Below, piece after piece: positions 6,649-41,427 of a stretch of DNA of 43,983 nucleotides. The number at the start of each line of letters is the position of its first letter. Within the stretch, counting starts at the first letter, position 1. Under the pieces are notes generated by a model that was not told where the DNA came from, did no database searches, and worked only from the letters and a program-made list of their open reading frames with translations. Origin of the DNA: a virus; IMG/VR virus record IMGVR_UViG_3300042691_012102, positions 1 through 43,983 of that record, one strand, 5' to 3'. Both the position numbers and the translations under genes were made by a program.

Positions 6649-9600
6649 TTTGCTCTTATCAAACTCTGCAACTATCTCACTTGTGCCTTCTGCATTGGCC
6701 ATTCTAAGATATTGTTCTTCTGTGTATAAGCCAGCCGCCAAAGCCTCGTGAATCGCCTTTGTTTTTACAACACGATACGTCTCATTGCTTTCCAATTGGT
6801 CGATTGCATCATTCATCTTTGGAGCAATACCTCCGCTACGTGCTAGAGTGACTGCATTTATAGGGCCCATTAACAAATCTTCTATTTCATTTTCAGTATA
6901 CTTGTTAAACTCCTCATCTGACATATCCTCTGCGTTCTTTTGAATTCTGTCAATTGACTCTTTAATTTGATTTTGATCGTATGAATTTAATATTTGATCG
7001 CCTCTCAATTTTGCAAGTTCTCTTTGATACTTCAATGGAATGTAAACCCCAAACTCACCCTCATCATCTTTACCTTGAACAAAAGGAGCATAGTATTTGT
7101 TTAACAAAGCAAATTCTTTTCTGCTACCTGTTGATTTTTGATACAGCGCTAACAAATCATAAAGTTGTGTTGTTGCCTCACTGCCTCTTTTGTTAAGTAT
7201 AAATTTATCCTTATCAAAGAAGTCTTTAGATTCAGTAATTGTTTCGTAGTCTTTGTCTTGTTGGTCTATGTTCAATTTTTCTAACTTAGCACCAGGGGGT
7301 ATTTCCTTTTTGACCGCAATGATATAATCTCCAAGATCTACGATGTCTCCAGGATTGTAAGTTTGCTTTGAGTCGTATTTCTTAACAGAAGATACAAAGC
7401 CTTCGTAGGTACTCATTGAGAATGGGTCAAAACTTGCTTGTAAGTATGCAGCAACTCTATCGCTTAACTCCCCACTTCTTATATCCCAGAAGGTGTTTTT
7501 CTTGTATAATTCTTCTCCGTGAGGCCCAATCTGAGGCTGATAATAAGGAGATGCATAAGGAGATAAAAATTCACCTTTGCTATTTTTTAAACCGAACAAA
7601 CTAATTGGTGATTTCCCGGTTAAGGAAGTCCATAATTTCAATTTAAACTTGCTTCCGATTGTGTCATCTGCCTCAAGGTCAGGGAAGTAATTTCTCATTG
7701 TATCAGCACTAACACCTTCTGCTTTTTCCACAGCACCAAACAGACCATAAGCCATTGTTGGTACAGTAAGAGCAGTTTTTGCCAAGTTCACTGCAAAGTT
7801 TTGCAAGCCTTCGTCTTTTGTTTTAAAAGCAGAAACAAGCGATGAGATGTTCTGAATAAAACTCAATCCAGTAACACCATTGGTAATAGATTCTGCAACC
7901 ATATTAAATGATACATTACTATAACCATCTTCGCCAACACCCATAATTTTTCTGTCTTCAAACTCTTTGGCAGAAAGACTTCCGTGCAAAGTTGCAAACC
8001 AAGTCATACCAAAACCAAAAATACCCAAGTTCGTGTAGTTAAATGTAAAATCTCCTTTTTGATAAGTGCGACCTTTATTATCAAATCCGTTAGTCAAATA
8101 GTCAACCAATGCACTAACGTTGATTTTTCCAGGGGGTTGACCAGCAAGACCTGCGGCTCTCGCTGCTTTTTTCTCTTCCTCGTCATCCCCGTAAGGAGCA
8201 CCTACAGCACCACTTTGAAATAAAAGATACGCAACAGTTGCAATTTGAATACCTTGAAATGTACTTACCAAGTAACGACCAGTTTTTCTCTGCTGTTCAA
8301 AAATAGCATTTCTTAATCTCTCTTGCTCTTTTTGTTTTGTCGGAGACAATGTTTCATTTTCATCTATATTGAACAAATTATCGTATTGTTTTACTAATCT
8401 ATTAAGTTTTACTTGTTGTACTGAATACATTATAATACTATATGGGAATACAGTTTTTTCTATAGCAGTACTAACAAAATTTGAAGGGATACGAGTAAAG
8501 GGAGACAGAATTGTCATTCCCATTTTCATAGTAGCCAAACCAAGTTTTGCCGGGTAGACATCTACAAGCCTTTGTAAATACTTCCCTTCTTTTTTTAGTT
8601 TTACAGACTTTGCATAAAGATTCTTTTCGGCTTTTGCCATATTTCCTCTAGCCTTTGTAAAGGAGTCAGTAATAAAGTTATCATTAGCAAAAATCCTACG
8701 ATTACCTTCTTTACGAGCGATATCCCCAGCAGTAGCATTTGGAACAGAATTTAAGCGAATAAATTTCTTGACTTCAGCAGGATCTGTAATACCTTGAGCA
8801 TACGCATAACTAGCAAGCGCCTCGTAATATCCGTACTGATAAAAAACACGGTCACCAGATATCGCAATGCTTTTACCAACAACTGTAGGCATATAACCAA
8901 ATATACCCCTAAGAAGTGTTGTGGCTGCTTGATAACCTTTGGGGTTCATTAATTCTAATTTGTTATTTCCGTTTGCATCTTTCTCGTTTAAAAGAACTAA
9001 CAACTGATCAAATTGCTCTGCCCATTCTTGGTCGCTCATTTTGTCAATGTCTTTTTTGAAGATGTTTTTCATCAGAATACCAATCATCTTGATACCCGTT
9101 GGCAATTCTCTTGTTGAATCAATATTGTTTTGACCCTCAAAGAAAGCATTTTCACTAGTTGAAACACTAGCTATGGTATTCTCCAAAATGTTTTTGATTT
9201 GTTGAACACCTTGTTCTCTAGCCATTTTACGATAAAGTGTAGGATCAACATTACCTTGTGCTCCTCTTTTAATCATAGTATTCAACTCGGTCACACTTCT
9301 TCTTGTGAATGCCGTAACTAGTTTATTTGCAAGTGCTCTACTCCAACCCAACACAAGGAACTTACCTTTCTTTGGTGTGTTAGCCAACATCAACTCTAAG
9401 TTACCAATTGCACCAATAACAATTGTTCTGAAAGAAAGTAATGCCAAAGCAGTTGTGCTCGTAAACCAATTGCCTGTACTTTTCTTTTTAAAAGCATCGA
9501 TGGTAGTTTTGAGTTTTCTTGCGGCTTGTTCAAATTTAATTTTAGATTTATCAAATGAATCAAATTGTGTATCTGTGTACGCATCCTCAGATTCCTCCAA

Positions 9601-12600
9601 TGCTTTTATTTCATTCTCATACTCTGCCTTTGCCTCTCTGAATTCCTTAATTGATTTCCTTATCTTTTGTTTCTGATTTTCGGTTAACTTAAATCCTTTG
9701 AACTTACGAACAATACCACCAGCTTCAGTTTTATAGGTTACATTTTCTAGACTATCGAAAATCGCTTTCTCAAATGCTTCTTGGTTCTTAAATAGACCAC
9801 GCCCCATTCTCAACATACGACCAGCTAGTGATAGTAGACGAGAGACGTTAATCATATCATCTGTCTTTATCTCTGCTCTACCAAGTTTCTTGAGTATATT
9901 TAAGTCATTTTCCAATGCAGCACGCTTCTCTCTCATATCATCGGTGACAGCACGAAGAGAAAACTCTAAACCTGTTTCCTCTAATCCATCAGCTAACATT
10001 TGAATTACTTGCTCATTATTGATAATACCATCAAAAAATCCAAACAAATTATTCATTTGGTTTCCTAGGTTAACCATTTTACGAGACCTAGCATCATCTT
10101 TTATCTCACGTAAGAAATCTCTATTGTAAACAGTTCTACCGCCTCTTGTCTCATTGATTGCTTTGTCGATGGTCTGTCTATACTCAGTACCAAAAATCTC
10201 ATCCAATAAGGCAGGATTTGCACCCTCTTCGTAGAATGCTTTGAACAATTCAAAATCCTCGTATTTATCTTTAAGCAAATCATAAAGACTGTCAAACTCC
10301 AATCCAGGGTTGTTTTCTAGTTCTTGACGAATTTCTCCTTGTCTTTTGGTAATCTTACCTCTATGCTTACGAATGGTAGCAAAGAATTTATTTACACTAC
10401 GCTTTTTCCAATTTTCACCAATCTCAGGAATGTATCGTTTGATATCCCCCGGAGAGTAATTCATTTTTTCTAGTTCATAGTACGCACCATCCACACTGAA
10501 ACCAGCATTACGGAAATCGTTGTAGTCTTTGACAATTGCATAGTCTACCCTATCTACTCTTGCCTTACTGATGATTTTGGTTGTATCAGTAATTAATGGA
10601 GTAGCATTTTCTTTCCAATAGCTCTGAGTCCCAATCTTAAACATATTGATATCAGCCTTAGCATCACGATACCAATCGATAGAACGCTGTACGCTCTGTT
10701 CAACATTGAACCCACTATAATCATCACGAACAAAGTTCCACTTATGATGATAAATCTGAGGATCTGATTTCTGCTTCGTAACGGTGACTTCTCCGCTCTT
10801 CTTAACCTTGTAGGCATCCCCAACTATAGGTTCGTTAGAAGTATTCCAATCTGGGCTCGCTATGAAAGAAAATGAGCCATCCGCAGCATTATACTTGATA
10901 ACCTCATATTCGAAATCCGCAGGTAGATTTGCTTCAGCCGCAATCAATTCTTTTTGAGGCAATACATCATTGGCAGAAGAGTGTACATACAAATCACCGC
11001 CAATCATCTTACCTACATCGCCTTTATAACGCTGAGGTACGCCATAGCCTTTAGATTGCTTTACTCTATCTTCAATCCTTGCCTTGCTTTGAATTTGTGC
11101 TTTCTGAGCCCCATTCACTACTGCAGGTTGACCAAACAAACTCATTTGACCTTTGTTATCGGCAATGATGATATTTCCAGAACGCTTGACATTTGCAAAG
11201 TAGGCTTGAACCTCTGGCAAGTACCAAGCAGTTTGTTGGTTGTTTTGCCAACTAGTTTCACCAGCAGTTTTGGTTTCTTTTCCAACACCACGATCCTTGG
11301 GGTCACCCTCGTAAATTTGTATTACCGCAGTACCCGTAGTACCCACGGCATTTGCCATATTTAAGATAACACCCTCTCTTGCCTCGGCCTCAGCAATAAC
11401 ATTCAATACGTTAGGAGATACAGCAATATCTGCTCCTCCATCACGAACGGTATTAATTGTTTCTTCGTTTACAGCGGCAGGTTGGTTGAATGGGTCATAT
11501 GGATGATAAGCAATTTCCTTACCCCCAAGTACTTCTTCCAAAGCAGGGATGGCCTTTTTACCAAGCATCTCCTTAGAAGAATCATTGATAAACTCGGCAA
11601 TCTCTGCTTTCTCCAATAATGGTTTGATGTTCACATTGGCATATTTACCACTACCAATATCGGCAATGACAATACGCTTTCCGGGAACTCCTTTGAGCAA
11701 ATCCAAGAACTTCTTATCACTGTAAACACTTGGCAATTTTGCCTTGTTGATGGAAGTACCAGCAGAACTAATTTCTTGCTGTGGTGTACTCCAAGCCTCA
11801 AGACGAGCCTTGCTCTTAACTTTGTTTTTCTCTAGGTTTGTTTTAACCTCTAGAATTTGTTTTTTGGCTAGTTCGACCCCAATGTCACTATGGTTTCTGC
11901 CAAACTCTTGATTTCCTCCGGTGTCAAATTTTCTAGTTCCATCTTCGTTATTTAATTTATCGTTTATTTGTTTATCAGTAAACCCATATTTTCGGGCTAA
12001 TTTTTTAGCAGCAGTCTCATAATCTGGTTGCTCATTATCACTTGTTTCCTCCGCACCCAACTCTTCTGTCTTACCCTCTTGGAAAGTTTGGTACAAGGCT
12101 TTTTCTGGATACCAATTGACCGCTTGTAAATCAGCAATGGTGATATCCAAATCAAATTCGTCTTTTAGTTTTTTCTGAACTTCATCAAAAACACTAATAA
12201 TGAATGCTCTTTGCTTACCACCATTAGGCGCTTCGATTTCACCTTTGATATTTTTATCCAATGAATTACCAGCTTTTCTAAGTTCATCTAACTTAGTATT
12301 GGCTTGTAGAATTTCTCTTTTTTCTACTTTGCCGCTCACCTTGGCAATCTTCGCTGCTAGTTTATCAGGAGCAAGCGCAGCATAATTTGGTATTAACTCT
12401 TCAAGCGTTCTCTTTTCTTTTACACCAAGTGATTTTAAACTAGACTTAAGTCTGTCTGTTCCTGCCTTAACTTTTGCTGGGTCAACATCAATAAGAGTAC
12501 CTGTCAATCTTCCGTATTGACGCATAAACCAACGATCCATTGTCAACTGAGTAAAGTCTCCATAAAGATTCATGAAGAAACCATTACCAATTTTTGGCCC

Positions 12601-18524: not shown

Positions 18525-20042
18525 TTAGATTTGCGGAGTAGCCATGATATCAGAGAAAGTTGCATTTGCATTTTTCTTTCTCTTTGGTATTTCAACATCA
18601 TATTTACCAGCCGTAGTTAATAATTTTTTCACTTCTTCTTCTAATTGATTATTTGGCTTCTTTAAAAATTGTCCAGAGATATTAGAGTAATTATTGAAAC
18701 GCTTGTAATAATAATTACTTCCTGATTTCAAACGAACAAATACATCCGCACCAGAAACTGATGCTTTATTATCGGCTTCTGAGGCTGATAATTTTATAGG
18801 ATTACCTTTTGCATCAGTAGCCAAAATAACTATACCATCAGCTTGAACATTTGGTAAGGTCGTTGCGCTCACAGGACCAAACTCACCACTAAATGTATCA
18901 GATGGTCTAGCGTCAATACTTTGAGGCTCTTTGTCAAAACTATAATTAATAATTCCTAACTTATAACTCTTATTAGTTGCACCCGTTCTACTAGCCAATT
19001 CCCCTGGAGAAATATCCGAAGTCGCAGAAGAAGTTACTTCATTTTGAGCCTGCATTATTGTCTGAGGTCTCATCATTGAAGTAGTTATACCGGGAGATGC
19101 AAAGTTCTTCGCCCAATTCATAATATTAGCCTTGATAGCCAAAGCATCTTCAGGATTCAATTGACCCTCTTGGTCAAAACGAGCTTGAAGATTATTCTGA
19201 TCTGCATATTGCACAATACTTTCTATACCTCCATCTGGAGACATTAAGAAATTGTCAACCACTGCTTCAATTGATGGTACTTCATTCTCATCTATATTAT
19301 TGTACCGAGCAACTTCTTCTGCACTTACTCCCAAATTAGAAGGCTTGTAAGTAACGGGACGAACTTTAACTTCCTTACCTTGAATATAACCATATGCTTT
19401 TTTCTTCTCGTCAGACTTAAACGGAAGTTGGGTAATTGCTTGTGTAATGTTTTGCTCCAATGTTTCCTTTGGTTTCATATTTCTGAAAGGAGTATAGGAA
19501 ACACTACCCATTGGTCTCATTTGTATCTGAGCATCGGGCTGCCATCCTTCTTTCTGAAGTTTAGCCAACATATCATCATAATCTGAGGCCGTCTCATAAG
19601 CCCTATTGAACTTCTCCCAATTTTTAGTAAAGTATGAACTACCTTTATCTTGAGCAGAAGTCATTATATCATACTGATTCAAATCTTTGCTTCTAGTCGA
19701 GTAAACTGACATTTCTTGCTCATAACGAGAAGCTAAATCACCAATACCATTTTGCCAATCATTAGGACGTTCGGTCTTTAGTTTTTTTAACTGATTCAAA
19801 TAACTAGTCTGAGTTTTTTGAACTTGAGGTAAAACAAGTCTATGAAATACACCAGAAGGTAATTCAAACTTTTTCAGTGCTTTTTCTTCTGCATCTTGAT
19901 CTTGTTTTGCTTTTTGAATGCCTAATTTAATATTACGATTAGCTGCAGCCTCACTTTTTTGAGCAAGCCGATTAGCCATTCTTTCAACATTCTGGTCTCT
20001 GCCTTGTAATCCTATTGCTTGTCCAACTGAAGGTGCTGCCAT
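18525..20042 (-). CDS. Candidate internal virion (ejection) protein, 505 aa
   Basis: The protein begins MAAPSVGQAIGLQGRDQNVE. Residues about 15-160 are strongly helical and charged (NRLAQKSEAAANRNIKLGIQ; coiled-coil-like). The rest is mixed, including a beta-rich stretch near residues 380-460 (VRLKSGSNYYYKRFNN), and it ends KNANATFSDIMATPQI. No enzyme motif is seen. It lies between the 334-aa protein and the giant protein, just where T7 gp15 lies between gp14 and gp16. By this synteny it is a candidate protein stored in the capsid and ejected with the DNA. There is no detectable sequence similarity to T7 that I can claim. It follows the 334-aa gene by 2 nt. Confidence 0.7.
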   Translation of the reverse strand: MAAPSVGQAIGLQGRDQNVERMANRLAQKSEAAANRNIKLGIQKAKQDQDAEEKALKKFELPSGVFHRLVLPQVQKTQTSYLNQLKKLKTERPNDWQNGIGDLASRYEQEMSVYSTRSKDLNQYDIMTSAQDKGSSYFTKNWEKFNRAYETASDYDDMLAKLQKEGWQPDAQIQMRPMGSVSYTPFRNMKPKETLEQNITQAITQLPFKSDEKKKAYGYIQGKEVKVRPVTYKPSNLGVSAEEVARYNNIDENEVPSIEAVVDNFLMSPDGGIESIVQYADQNNLQARFDQEGQLNPEDALAIKANIMNWAKNFASPGITTSMMRPQTIMQAQNEVTSSATSDISPGELASRTGATNKSYKLGIINYSFDKEPQSIDARPSDTFSGEFGPVSATTLPNVQADGIVILATDAKGNPIKLSASEADNKASVSGADVFVRLKSGSNYYYKRFNNYSNISGQFLKKPNNQLEEEVKKLLTTAGKYDVEIPKRKKNANATFSDIMATPQI

Positions 20043-34226: not shown

Positions 34227-34625
34227 TCAATTTTCAGAATTTGCAAGCACATAATGATTCGGTTCGTAATTTTTTATGAAAAATTCTATGAATTCCGCTC
34301 CTTTCTTCACTATAACTTTCTCAACAACAAGGCGATAGATAAATTTATCGTTGAAGCCATATTTTTTTTGCAAGATGTCTACAAAGGGTTTTACAACATT
34401 GTCTGCATCTGAGGCAGCGTTGCTTACACCAACGAATAGATTTAACTCGATGGGTCCAGTGACGGTAAAGGTATGAGGATGTAATTTTAACAAAACTTCC
34501 TTTTCATACTCTTTGTACAAGGGTGATTTAAATTTACGTCCTTGCCATGCTTGATTGACAGACATTGGTTTAACTTCTACTTTGTCTGAAAAGAGTAGGA
34601 TATTGCGCTTTAAGTGTTGTGCCAT
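34227..34625 (-). CDS. rusA-like: RusA-type Holliday junction resolvase, 132 aa
   Basis: RusA family enzymes cut four-way DNA junctions formed in recombination or packaging. The signature is S-D-A-D-N-V-V-K-P-F-V-D (residues 72-83), giving the paired acidic residues D73 and D75 with K79. FND (D93) follows, with the strand VVEKVIVKKGAEFIEFFI near the end. The N-terminus has the usual KVEVKPMSVNQAWQGRKFK. I kept the ATG at 34625, which keeps the first strand but overlaps the upstream gene by 56 nt; an ATG at 34565 would avoid the overlap but lose that strand. It is third in the leftward regulator operon and acts in the cytoplasm. Confidence 0.85.
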   Translation of the reverse strand: MAQHLKRNILLFSDKVEVKPMSVNQAWQGRKFKSPLYKEYEKEVLLKLHPHTFTVTGPIELNLFVGVSNAASDADNVVKPFVDILQKKYGFNDKFIYRLVVEKVIVKKGAEFIEFFIKNYEPNHYVLANSEN

Positions 34626-34983
34626 TGGCTTCTAAGTCGGTGAAGAGAAGTAATTCTACGGGCAAGCCGAAGAACTCAGATGTTATAATCGCTTGACGCA
34701 AAGAATAGATTTTGTTCTCCTCATAAATCGTTTTATTAAAGTCATTTGGCATATCGATGCCCATAAACTCTTTGATTTTGTTGGCCGAGCAGTTTTCTTT
34801 GTGTAGGCGGTTGAGATATAAAACATTCGCCCGGAATCTATCCGATATGTGATGTATCCTTTTTTGAATCGCTTTCTCATAGTATTCTTTGCGTATATCA
34901 GCAATCAGTTCATTTTCAATAAAATTGTTGAGACCACGTTTTTTTATCTCAATGATTTTTCTGTCTAATTCGTCAGAAGTCAT
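34570..34983 (-). CDS. Putative DNA-binding regulator, 137 aa
   Basis: The protein is mostly helical: a charged N-terminal helix (ELDRKIIEIKKRGLNNFIEN), ISDRFRANVLYLNRLHKENC, then SANKIKEFMGIDMPNDFNKT. It ends SLRQAIITSEFFGLPVELLL plus FTDLEAN, which resembles the last helix of Cro/CI-type (XRE) domains ('a-x-f-f-x-v-p-x-e-x-L-L-x-x-D-L'). It overlaps the 81-aa gene by ATGA (34980-34983). The pair is divergent from the early genes, the usual position of a phage repressor or early switch. The fold call is moderate; binding sites are unknown, and the TGTCC repeats at 40.1-40.3 kb are candidates. Confidence 0.6.
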   Translation of the reverse strand: MTSDELDRKIIEIKKRGLNNFIENELIADIRKEYYEKAIQKRIHHISDRFRANVLYLNRLHKENCSANKIKEFMGIDMPNDFNKTIYEENKIYSLRQAIITSEFFGLPVELLLFTDLEANGTTLKAQYPTLFRQSRS

Positions 34984-35225
34984 AAATCAGAAATTCGACT
35001 TTCAAATTCCTTCAGGTAGCGTTCGTTCTCTTCGATACACTTTTTAACCTCACGCATAACAGTGATCAGTTTTTGTTGATCGATAAGAGATTTACCATTG
35101 AGAATATTGTAGACATCGTATTTTTCGACTCCTAATCGAGATGTTCTCTCTACGATACGAGCCATGTCTCCACGCTTAAGTTGTCCCTTAAGGTTGAGCA
35201 CTCTCTCTTTTAATTGGTTGTTCAT
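34980..35225 (-). CDS. Small helix-turn-helix-like regulator, 81 aa
   Basis: The protein begins MNNQLKERVLNLKGQLKRGD and continues MARIVERTSRLGVEKYDVYN and ILNGKSLIDQQKLITVMREV. The segment 'GDMARIVERTSRLGVEKYDVYNILNG' reads like a helix-turn-helix (residues about 19-45) followed by a packing helix and a charged coiled C-terminus. The size is right for a Cro-like protein. It is the first gene leftward from the divergent promoters at 35235-35282 and so may regulate both directions. The -7 element of its own promoter ends 9 nt before the ATG. The HTH assignment comes from reading the pattern and is not certain. Confidence 0.65.
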   Translation of the reverse strand: MNNQLKERVLNLKGQLKRGDMARIVERTSRLGVEKYDVYNILNGKSLIDQQKLITVMREVKKCIEENERYLKEFESRISDL

Positions 35226-35234
35226 AATATTTTA

Positions 35235-35265
35235 CAATTTTACAAAAAAAATTTGAAATTACAAA
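35235..35265 (-). promoter_or_regulatory. Leftward promoter of the regulator operon
   Basis: Read leftward: TTTG (35262-35265), a 19-nt spacer and TAAAATTG (35235-35242), one mismatch from TAnnTTTG, 9 nt before the ATG at 35225. It overlaps the rightward promoter by 14 nt. Confidence 0.65.
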
Positions 35266-35282
35266 ATATTCTAGTATATTCG
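35252..35282 (+). promoter_or_regulatory. Rightward early promoter
   Basis: TTTG (35252-35255), a 19-nt spacer and TATATTCG (35275-35282), one mismatch from TAnnTTTG, 20 nt before the ATG at 35303. It faces the opposite way to, and partly shares DNA with, the leftward promoter, so one regulator or polymerase could exclude the other. Confidence 0.7.
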
Positions 35283-35302
35283 CCCTACAAATAGATAAAA
35301 TC

Positions 35303-39057: not shown

Positions 39058-39130
39058 CTAGGGATAGTCTCCCTAGACCGAAAGTTCCCACCTGCATACC
39101 GTAAGATCTGCTAGTGGGACTTTTTCTTTT
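39058..39130 (+). terminator. Tandem hairpins ending the rightward early operon
   Basis: First hairpin: CTAGGGA, loop TAGTC, TCCCTAG (39058-39076), a perfect 7-bp stem with no T-tract. Second: AAAG(T)TCCCAC (39081-39091) pairs with GTGGGACTTT (39114-39123) across a 22-nt loop, followed by TTTTTCTTTT to 39130. The second is a credible rho-independent terminator for the + strand and may also serve the convergent gene that stops at 39129. Confidence 0.7.
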
Positions 39131-39608
39131 AAGCGTCCCAGTGTTTATTGTATCGTTCGTAGTAGAACTCTGGCATCTTTGTAGAATACTCTGCTACATA
39201 GTCACAATTAAAAACACTATTTGTCATTTCTATCAAGCAGGTGGTGATGATTTGGTCATTCTTGTATCCCAAGTCTAATAGAACTTGCTTTATCCAAATG
39301 TAATTGTTTCCAGATAGTACAGCAGCTTCACATAAGATTACTTTGTCATAGATCTGAGGAAAAATAACTGAATTTTTTATAAATGCTTTTTGATATTCAT
39401 CCTTGCTTTCCTTTGGGTAAGGAACATCTACAGGAAACATATCTAGCATTTTACCTCCTACAGATAAATGATGCGCCATATGCATTGAGATACTGCTAGA
39501 GTAGTCTGGAGATACGTTTAAAACAACAGTAGTAAATGGATCTACGGCTGGTACTTGACGAATCAAATCTTGAATCATCTGATATTCTTTTATGTGGTCG
39601 ATGTACAT
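39129..39608 (-). CDS. Phosphoribosyltransferase-like protein (tentative), 159 aa
   Basis: The protein alternates hydrophobic strands and helices. The key segment is DKVILCEAAVLSGNNYIWIK (about residues 88-107), which has the form of the PRPP loop of PRTases: four hydrophobic residues, two usually acidic positions, then small residues ending in a Gly. The second acidic position is Ala here (E-A instead of E/D-D/E). Downstream CLIEMTNS and a YYERYNKHWD end also fit. Catalysis is therefore uncertain. It is transcribed alone and leftward from a perfect -7 element at 39613-39620, against the early operon. A role in nucleotide salvage or host takeover is speculative. Confidence 0.55.
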   Translation of the reverse strand: MYIDHIKEYQMIQDLIRQVPAVDPFTTVVLNVSPDYSSSISMHMAHHLSVGGKMLDMFPVDVPYPKESKDEYQKAFIKNSVIFPQIYDKVILCEAAVLSGNNYIWIKQVLLDLGYKNDQIITTCLIEMTNSVFNCDYVAEYSTKMPEFYYERYNKHWDA

Positions 39609-39612
39609 AGCA

Positions 39613-39620
39613 CAAAAGTA
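39613..39620 (-). promoter_or_regulatory. -7 promoter element TACTTTTG before the 159-aa gene
   Basis: A perfect TAnnTTTG read leftward ends 4 nt before the ATG at 39608, the same spacing as at 829, 1431, 6614 and 18501. The nearest upstream TTG is 23 nt away, longer than usual. Confidence 0.6.
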
Positions 39621-39667
39621 ATTAATTGCGCCTACTTTTTATACAATGCGCCCATTTTTCTTATACC

Positions 39668-39708
39668 ACTTCCGACTTTGGCAGTGTTTTACTTCCGACT
39701 TTGGCAGT
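39668..39708. repeat. Two direct repeats of an 18-nt word
   Basis: ACTTCCGACTTTGGCAGT occurs at 39668-39685 and 39691-39708, perfectly conserved, with a period of 23 nt. That is about the same period as the TGTCC array 500 bp further right, but the words differ. This could be a protein-binding tandem site. Confidence 0.8.
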
Positions 39709-39808
39709 AACTAACAAATGCCAGTAAATAAAAAAAGTGGCAAATGTTTGCACAAAGTAGCGAAAAGTAATACCTATTGCAAAAAATATACCCCCTGGTA
39801 TAATACCG

Positions 39809-39882
39809 CTCGGTAAAAATGTACCCCCCCCTATTGATATCAAGGCCAAATATTCCCCCTCGGTAAAAATGTACCCCCCCCT
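39809..39882. repeat. Two 24-nt repeats ending in a C-tract
   Basis: A 24-nt unit with the core CGGTAAAAATGTACCCCCC and a run of eight C occurs at 39809-39832 and 39859-39882 (period 50 nt). Degenerate relatives (TATACCCCC near 39788, ATTCCCCCT near 39852) lie between and before. The minus strand is G-tract-rich here. Confidence 0.8.
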
Positions 39883-40110
39883 CTTTTATTCTGACAAAAC
39901 AAAATTTGTGTGAGTGGTGAAGGTAATAATACGTTGCGGATCGGTAGGGGTGGCGAAAAAAACAGCCCCCCCCTAACCTATTGATAATCAACGATTTAGG
40001 AAGCAATCATTTACCTAAGTGACTGATATTCAATGAGTTACAATTAAAAAACGAACTGAGCATCCGTATACACTCGCTCGATTGTGTACACTAAAAACTA
40101 CACTGCCTGA

Positions 40111-40291
40111 TGGATCGTCCATTAAATTAGACAGCTTGTGTCCGCTATTCTGGACGATCCACTATGTGTACCTTATAGTATACAGAAGGGGGTTAACTGC
40201 CCATTATATTGGACGGTATGTGTCCACTTTATTAGCCAGGCCGAGTGTCCACTTTACTGGGCACCGGCTGTCCACTATTCTGGACGATCCT
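40111..40291. repeat. Array of six imperfect ~24-nt TGTCC...GGAC repeats
   Basis: Copies lie at 40111-40134 (reverse orientation), 40138-40161, 40197-40220, 40220-40243, 40245-40267 and 40268-40291. The best form is TGTCCACTATTCTGGAC followed by GATCC. The last four are spaced 23-25 nt, about two helical turns. Most copies contain an inner TGTCC...GGAC inverted repeat, so each may bind a dimer. A seventh, perfectly symmetrical copy lies at 41081. Candidate iterons of an origin, or operators. Confidence 0.75.
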
Positions 40292-40485
40292 CAGATGGCG
40301 TTTCACAGTGATTTCGTGCACCCATTTTAGGTGATTAAATACACCCATATTTGCACCCATTTTGGGGGGTTATTTGGTACGCATTTCGAACTTGGTGCGT
40401 ATACCTAAGCACGCTGAAACCATCATTTTGAAAATTTTTTTTCCCAATGTTTTCGGGGCTTGACAGCGATTTCGAAAAATAATGC

Positions 40486-40516
40486 TTGACTTTTTTTTGT
40501 GGATGTTGTAGAATTG
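40486..40516 (+). promoter_or_regulatory. Rightward promoter of the right arm
   Basis: TTG (40486-40488), a 20-nt T-rich spacer and TAGAATTG (40509-40516), one mismatch from TAnnTTTG. The 50-nt leader before the ATG at 40567 is A/C-rich and unstructured, with CACTAAACAAA twice, a translation enhancer-like start in place of a Shine-Dalgarno site. Confidence 0.65.
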
Positions 40517-40566
40517 CATCATCAAATCACAAACAAAACACTAAACAAACACTAAACAAACAAGTT

Positions 40567-41040
40567 ATGAAAAACATCACACTCACACTCACACAAGTTA
40601 ACCGCATCGATGCGAATGTAACTGAGTACCAACACACCATCAATGTCAAGTTGAACACCGAAGTATCGGTAACCTTTGGTCAACTGATTGGTCAATTGAA
40701 CTTCAAGTTTTTCAAATCAGTAATGGCAATGCGCCATTCGGGAAACAAGGGCTTCAGTTTCAACAATTTGTTCCACTTTCAAATCGATGCGGATGGTCAC
40801 ACCCTATGTAATACCCTTACTTTGGAGGAGTCGCTCAAAGCCAAAGTGCGAATGGCCAACACCATCGATGGGCAGAAACGATTTGCACGCCTTATGGCGG
40901 GTATGTTGTACTCGGCCTTTGGTGATGACTTCCACTATAGTGCCTTTGGTGACTACGAAGACACGACCTACATAGGAAGCGACCACGCCAATGCTATCCG
41001 CATCTTTATGGATACCGAGGTCTGCGAGATTATAGACTAA
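40567..41040 (+). CDS. Uncharacterised right-arm protein, 157 aa
   Basis: I use the ATG at 40567 because it follows the promoter and an A/C-rich leader. An earlier in-frame ATG at 40486 lies within the promoter itself. The product begins MKNITLTLTQVNRIDANVTE and is an alternating beta/helix protein with a Phe/Tyr-rich end (GDDFHYSAFGDYEDTTYIGS). No family is recognised. It is the first gene of the right arm and directly next to the repeat region, so a replication-initiator or repeat-binding role is worth considering, but no HTH or initiator motif is visible. Confidence 0.7.
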   Translation: MKNITLTLTQVNRIDANVTEYQHTINVKLNTEVSVTFGQLIGQLNFKFFKSVMAMRHSGNKGFSFNNLFHFQIDADGHTLCNTLTLEESLKAKVRMANTIDGQKRFARLMAGMLYSAFGDDFHYSAFGDYEDTTYIGSDHANAIRIFMDTEVCEIID

Positions 41041-41045
41041 ACCCC

Positions 41046-41077
41046 TAAGTGTGGGTGGGTCGTACTGCCCACACTTA
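41046..41077 (+). other. Perfect 10-bp hairpin after the 157-aa gene
   Basis: TAAGTGTGGG (41046-41055) and CCCACACTTA (41068-41077) pair perfectly around a 12-nt loop. No T-run follows, so it is not a standard terminator. It lies 3 nt before the symmetrical TGTCC site at 41081-41098 and could act as an RNA-processing, attenuation or cruciform element. Confidence 0.7.
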
Positions 41078-41080
41078 CAA

Positions 41081-41098
41081 TGTCCACTATTCTGGACA
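41081..41098. repeat. Symmetrical TGTCC-N8-GGACA site
   Basis: TGTCCACTATTCTGGACA is the most symmetrical copy of the array element at 40111-40291 and is about 0.8 kb away from it. It supports the idea that the unit is an operator bound by a dimeric protein, here placed upstream of the structured leader and its genes. Confidence 0.7.
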
Positions 41099-41149: not shown

Positions 41150-41427
41150 AGTTGGTTCTGCTGACGAAAAGGGTACATAGGGATATATTTATGGTAGGGG
41201 AGACCCGACCAACTGAGAGGTGTGCGAATCGTTCTTTGACATATGGTGTGTTCTGTTATCGCTTAGGTTACCTAAGGCTAACGACCTAACTTAATACTTC
41301 GGTTGACCACTGATGGCACGCTCTTAAGCCTAAAATCAGTAGTTGTTAGGTGAACACAAACCAAGGGTGCAAAAGTAAAGGCTTGGCATCTATGTTGTGG
41401 GTTCGATTCTCCACCCCCTTGGCAACT
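41150..41427 (+). other. Structured leader RNA candidate upstream of the membrane-protein gene
   Basis: This 278-nt stretch has no gene but has nested complementarity: AGTTGGT/ACCAACT (41150-41156, 41208-41214), CTTAGGT-T-ACCTAAG (41262-41276), ACCTAAC/GTTAGGT (41284-41290, 41345-41351) enclosing ACTGAT/ATCAGT (41309-41314, 41335-41340), and a final tRNA-like fold: CCAAGGG/CCCTTGG (41361-41367, 41416-41422) with a T-arm-like GTGGG-TTCGATTC-TCCAC (41397-41414). A boxA-like CGTTCTTTGACA occurs at 41230-41241. The end abuts the ATG at 41428. Together with 41041-41149 it makes up the gap between the flanking genes. It may control translation or antitermination. Confidence 0.45.

Follow-up and report, generated by a model that had tools for sequence, protein, structure and literature searches.

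Regulation in Bacteroidota phages is poorly mapped. The operators OL and OR of phage lambda, bound by CI and Cro, are partial palindromes of 17-18 bp that stand in several copies, in 23-25-bp steps, at promoters of the early region. In Cluster A mycobacteriophages, one stoperator motif occupies several places per genome and drifts between relatives (PMC6550527), each stoperator being a 13-bp asymmetric site bound by a monomeric repressor (PMC9283540).

The locus analysed here lies in a viral record of 43,983 bases, the whole of which is hereafter referred to as the window. Its repeated elements share with OL and OR the form of partial palindromes of 17-18 bp, several of them in 23-25-bp steps, and a possible association with early-region promoters. 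Unlike the lambda operators, however, the array copies either stand 70-300 bp away from any promoter that can be recognised or fall within leaders, their spacing is not conserved between phages, several proteins are candidates for their owner, and the promoter of the XRE-like genes carries no copy. As with stoperators, one motif is found at several genome places, mostly in one orientation, and drifts between relatives; in contrast to stoperators, which number up to about 30 per genome, these are 18-bp dyads in 1-7 copies, confined to the right arm. With origins built from iterons or DnaA boxes they share tandem sites in a non-coding region and phages that encode a DnaA domain-IV protein, but the array units are palindromic rather than directional, their spacing is variable, single-copy members exist, and one relative (G001) is devoid of copies at the corresponding position. 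We consider it probable (roughly 0.6) that these 18-bp dyads are operators for a homodimeric DNA-binding regulator near the right-arm operons.

The dyad array of the window

The window has no near match among named phages. Its portal protein is distant kin of Flavobacterium phage portals (20-21% identity) and its relatives use promoters of the Bacteroidota type TAnnTTTG, a consensus described previously (PMC9723704); on both grounds, its host is likely a member of the Bacteroidota. The longer right arms of relatives carry genes for a DNA polymerase, a primase-helicase, a terminase, a serine recombinase and a DnaA domain-IV protein, and the window is therefore probably truncated on the right. 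An earlier note had described seven TGTCC-N8-GGAC copies next to this arm, and all seven are borne out, in the form TGTCC-N8-GGACA, at the starts listed here, with their weight-matrix scores and adjoining features.

40116-40133, plus strand: dyad copy 1, CGTCCATTAAATTAGACA, 18.9 bits
40139-40156, plus strand: dyad copy 2, TGTCCGCTATTCTGGACG, 20.6 bits
40167-40184, plus strand: degenerate copy, possibly a decayed site, in the 59-nt gap, TGTACCTTATAGTATACA, 7.8 bits
40198-40215, plus strand: dyad copy 3, TGCCCATTATATTGGACG, 20.8 bits
40221-40238, plus strand: dyad copy 4, TGTCCACTTTATTAGCCA, 18.6 bits
40246-40263, plus strand: dyad copy 5, TGTCCACTTTACTGGGCA, 24.3 bits
40269-40286, plus strand: dyad copy 6, TGTCCACTATTCTGGACG, 23.9 bits
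40486-40516, plus strand: promoter-like TTG-N20-TAGAATTG of Bacteroidota type for the 157-aa gene, a pattern match only, 200 bp downstream of copy 6
40567-41040, plus strand: 157-aa gene (open reading frame), first gene 3' of the six-copy cluster, with homologs in G005, G006 and G007
41047-41076, plus strand: 9-bp hairpin AAGTGTGGG/CCCACACTT, read from the sequence, a possible end of the 157-aa transcript
41081-41098, plus strand: dyad copy 7, TGTCCACTATTCTGGACA, 26.1 bits

The element is an 18-bp dyad, TGTCCA-N6-TGGACA, with an AT-rich centre (consensus TGTCCAMTWTWCTGGACA). Its count over the whole window is not enriched (12 found versus 12.65 expected at up to two mismatches). Its clustering is non-random, with six copies in 171 bp compared to never more than three per 190 bp in 60 Markov replicates of the window; the 961-bp intergenic region, replicated 2,000 times, averaged 0.28 copies and never had more than three. 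On a weight matrix built from the copies of the window and its relatives, all seven copies score 18.6-26.1 bits and the rest of the window at most 11.3; the training sites come from the window's own lineage (A), so that high scores within that lineage are partly circular, while the sites of lineage B, left out of training, score 20.6-25.7 bits. A scan of 648 kb from 15 phage records with this matrix returned 33 sites at or above 16 bits and none in a shuffled replicate, separating true sites (16-26 bits) from a background at or below about 13 bits.

Several details of the original description needed adjustment. Steps of 23-25 nt are present, yet the full series in the cluster is 23, 59, 23, 25 and 23 nt. 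The 41081 copy, reported as perfectly symmetrical, is so in its outer 6-bp arms and asymmetric in its inner six bases. The six-copy cluster does lie between opposing genes (39129-39608 on the minus strand and 40567-41040 on the plus strand), whereas the 41081 copy sits between two plus-strand genes, 3' of the 157-aa gene and 5' of a small-gene operon that includes a phrog_2554 gene; equivalent sites occur in G005 and G006. The window sites fall under no conserved open reading frame. A search of the viral collection for relatives of the 157-aa protein returned none, yet homologs exist in the three related records listed above.

Recurrence in three phage lineages

The motif search in related phages that had been proposed earlier found the element in eight related records of lineage A (G001, G004, G005, G006, G007, G008, G012 and G016) and in two further lineages, B and C, whose structural genes differ from those of the window's lineage; the short contig G011 has a site identical to that of G004. 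Lineage B (G029 and G030) has a different portal (23% identity), and its arrays precede small right-arm genes. Lineage C comprises G038 and five shorter contigs with 3-5 sites at a largely 19-nt pitch, in arrays that separate a GP88-family gene from the operon after it and begin about 35 nt 3' of a TATCTTTG box. On sequence grounds, the sites are a real, conserved family of palindromes, shared by no fewer than three distinct groups of phages that appear to infect Bacteroidota.

Across carriers, the sites are set in promoter, leader or intergenic regions of the right arm, at variable positions, with 1-7 copies per phage and steps of 18, 19, 23-25 or 33 nt, a range that does away with the suggested phasing near two helical turns. 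In most site-bearing records, G008 being one exception, no more than about 3 kb separates a site from a downstream gene that encodes a GP88 or phrog_2554 protein, two families that may or may not be related to each other. The window, G001, G005 and G006 each have sites at two dispersed places. G001 has no copies at the position used in the window, although the adjoining non-coding block is kept; its copies precede two other operons, stop just short of promoters and overlap two genes at their 3' ends, while elsewhere the sites lie outside conserved reading frames. No sites were found in a matrix scan of the relatives G018, G014 and G020, and G016 has a site that is missing from its close relative G018. 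Between L027 and L028, 3 of 18 bases changed in the element compared to 10 of 242 in its flanks (Fisher p = 0.05), which hints at fast site turnover.

A recognisable promoter lies 68-300 bp away in G000, G001, G005, G006 and G008. The arrays of G001 and G008 are placed about 70 bp (68-71 bp) upstream of TTG-N-TAnnTTTG promoters, and the distance is 200-300 bp in the window, G005 and G006; no recognisable promoter pattern was seen near the lone sites of G004, G012 and G016. This variable distance (about 70-300 bp) and the lone sites with no promoter pattern nearby count against the operator reading, in which a direct effect on transcription, such as repression by promoter overlap, is a supposition.

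Collections of phages and plasmids, searched for both close and remote DNA similarity, gave no match, and searches of the open-access literature brought up no account of sites of this kind from phages of Bacteroidota. Six viral contigs with a single 17-mer match each, and nine genomic matches that resembled arrays, were put down to chance, most of these matches being isolated or coding. The archaeal (Archaeoglobales) contig L018 has three copies resembling TGTCC...GGACA where an ATPase gene begins (2682-2770), which are probably unrelated. In the actinobacterial contigs L090 and L105, TGTCCACTTTTCTGGACA-type pairs stand at the start of an HTH gene, a hint that TGTCCA-N6-TGGACA may suit HTH dimers generally and not evidence of a common owner.

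Half-site logic and candidate owners

The two halves of the element tolerate the same substitutions in nearly equal proportions. Over 32 distinct copies, position 5 is C in 24 and T in eight on left and right alike, position 1 is T29/C3 versus T28/C4, and position 9 is A24/T8 versus A25/T7. Each copy could also form a 6-bp stem, and some copies (L027, L028, G016) lie in structured-looking leaders, raising the alternative that the elements act as RNA hairpins with UGUCCA/UGGACA stems. Against it, 20 of 37 one-sided changes would break the stem, changes on both sides occur at chance level (3 versus 3.4 expected), and several arrays lie upstream of promoters; we regard this alternative as most improbable. 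Equal half-site tolerance without co-variation points instead to a DNA site for a symmetric dimer, such equivalent half-sites being what an operator array for a dimeric regulator should present, and the element is predicted to be a site with two equal protein contacts on DNA. The earlier note had called one copy inverted, a label without real meaning in a palindrome whose only clear left/right asymmetry is at position 7/12. Tandem copies tend toward a common polarity there, but in lineage B arrays this polarity is opposite to the adjoining genes and is hence not tied to transcription. As improbable as the hairpin alternative is a reading of the repeats as leftover or mimic transposon ends, akin to the IstA-binding arrays of IS21-like elements. 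TG...CA palindromes in short gene-less arrays, with several other repeat families nearby, would suit such ends; nevertheless, six related phage records, which are incomplete, gave no match to the IS21 transposase (NF033546), the repeats of one IS21 element compared are unrelated to the dyad, and the dyad logic and promoter proximity look regulatory.

The earlier note had left the choice between an origin with iterons and operators of a dimeric repressor. Its operator half gains from the half-site statistics, the lack of co-variation, the recurrence in three lineages and the non-fixed spacing; its origin half finds no support here. An origin predicts one conserved multi-copy locus and operators predict dispersal. 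Rather than regularly spaced copies at one conserved locus, we found sites at two places in several phages, single-copy phages, and no copies at the equivalent position in G001, a dispersal that favours operators. In the same vein, variable spacing, copy number and position, together with close relatives devoid of sites, appear more in line with operators than with a replication origin. In the window's lineage the array does not coincide with a GC skew extreme, and the cumulative skew minimum of the window, at 34.5 kb, follows gene orientation and lies away from the array. A role for the phages' stand-alone DnaA domain-IV (Bac_DnaA_C) protein as binder of the sites, in an origin or initiator-controlled locus, is possible but on balance unlikely, and its more specific form, a DnaA domain-IV protein turned dimeric binder of TGTCCA-N6-TGGACA at operators or a phage origin, is decidedly tentative. 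Bac_DnaA_C is the sole DNA-binding family found in all three site-bearing lineages (A: G001, G004, G005, G006, G008, G012 and G016; B: G029 and G030; C: G038), being present in every site-bearing record that covers that genome part. It is missing from 31 other records checked, most with single, probably chance, sites, and named phages seldom carry it (0 to 52 of 50,697, varying with the query used). The half-site core TGTCCA also resembles TTGTCCACA, one form of DnaA boxes. Conversely, G014, G018, G020 and the named phages tooticki6-1, ctyzp037 and HTVC204P carry the protein and lack the array, L026 and L027 pair an identical site with very different DnaA_C proteins, clusters of classical DnaA boxes were not found, and several phages have one site only or two distant places. 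The association is moreover confounded, as the control records are mostly non-Bacteroidota phages and include an incomplete contig of lineage C, and the DnaA_C gene itself is not on the truncated window. A link between the array and loss of the DnaA signature aspartate looked promising and failed on L026. Doubtful as well is a Cro/CI-like switch in which the sites are operators of one of two XRE-like proteins of the window:

34570-34983, minus strand: 137-aa protein, candidate regulator (AlphaFold mean pLDDT 90)
34980-35225, minus strand: 81-aa protein, candidate regulator, predicted four-helix HTH (AlphaFold mean pLDDT 94)

Both have lambda-repressor-like predicted folds, and 18-bp dyads in 23-25-bp steps recall OL and OR. 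The C-terminal half of the 137-aa model, a predicted XRE/lambda-repressor-like fold, matches SinR, EspR, LexA-like, 434 and P22 repressors at Z 5-7 and the 81-aa model matches lambda cI weakly (Z 4.7), values of a size (4.7-7) that may mean no more than a widespread arrangement; with Foldseek alone, neither model had a hit at E <= 0.001. On the other hand, both families are conserved in site-less relatives, and neither was detected in a profile search of lineages B and C. A lambda-type switch would have its repressor gene adjoining and autoregulated via the same operators, but the surroundings of the 81-aa and 137-aa genes show no such arrangement, and their shared promoter region (35226-35302) has no copy and a different conserved repeat, TTTTACAATTTTAC...AATTACAAA.

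Under the operator reading, a homodimeric regulator would occupy the 18-bp dyads, repeated sites would let several dimers sit side by side near right-arm promoters and leaders, and occupancy, through repression or activation, could switch the right-arm operons, the presumed responders, together. The lead candidates for the owner are a shared host factor, the phage DnaA domain-IV-type protein, and the XRE-like 137-aa or 81-aa protein. Across the compared records of lineages A, B and C, no regulator is distributed in step with the sites, and their lack in G018, G014 and G020 implies that such control would be dispensable. A host factor would explain both the sharing across lineages and this dispensability, and as a candidate fits as well as a phage owner. 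Two other owners were rejected. The serine recombinase came into consideration since TGTC also opens resolvase half-sites, but lineage B yielded none and lineage C only a 25-residue match, and a C5 methyltransferase, present in all three lineages, is common in phages generally (1,708 records). One palindrome reused by at least three lineages offers a testable handle on Bacteroidota phage regulation, pointing either to a common host regulator or to a shared phage regulator, possibly a repurposed DnaA DNA-binding domain.

Neighbouring features

Several other repeat families are found near the array, and one conserved block precedes it:

39627-39936, strand not assigned: non-coding block that has repeats of its own and is conserved at about 78-82% identity in G001 and L010-L012

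This block holds two copies of ACTTCCGACTTTGGCAGT, copies of the TCGGTAAAAATGTACCCCC type and four to five C-runs; it is better conserved in relatives than the TGTCC array is, and a core function may more likely reside in this block as a cis-element. The product of the minus-strand 159-aa gene (39122-39627; 7981-8487 in L025) is 90% identical to its counterpart in G010. As the structural genes of G010 are of the lineage B type, the lineages seem to have exchanged genes recently. A serine recombinase of about 228 aa, with a Resolvase and a truncated Recombinase domain, is encoded near the DnaA_C gene in relatives (L024 15474-16169 and equivalents).

Beside the dyad there are also tRNA-like pieces (window 41363-41421; L037 about 9100-9160 and 9400) with an acceptor-type stem and a T-arm with a TTCGATTC loop, and no apparent anticodon arm, which neither ARAGORN nor Rfam called. 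A structured-looking conserved leader of about 300 nt lies ahead of a 130-aa gene in L027 (7700-8000), L028 (1115-1430), L051 (about 19280-19630) and L053 (about 12000-12400); the L027 leader, the sole one of these four loci to be scanned, had no Rfam match. In G014 (L057 4798-5144), ARAGORN called a tmRNA gene in the right arm, closely followed by a tRNA-Ala, ahead of a phrog_2554-like gene.
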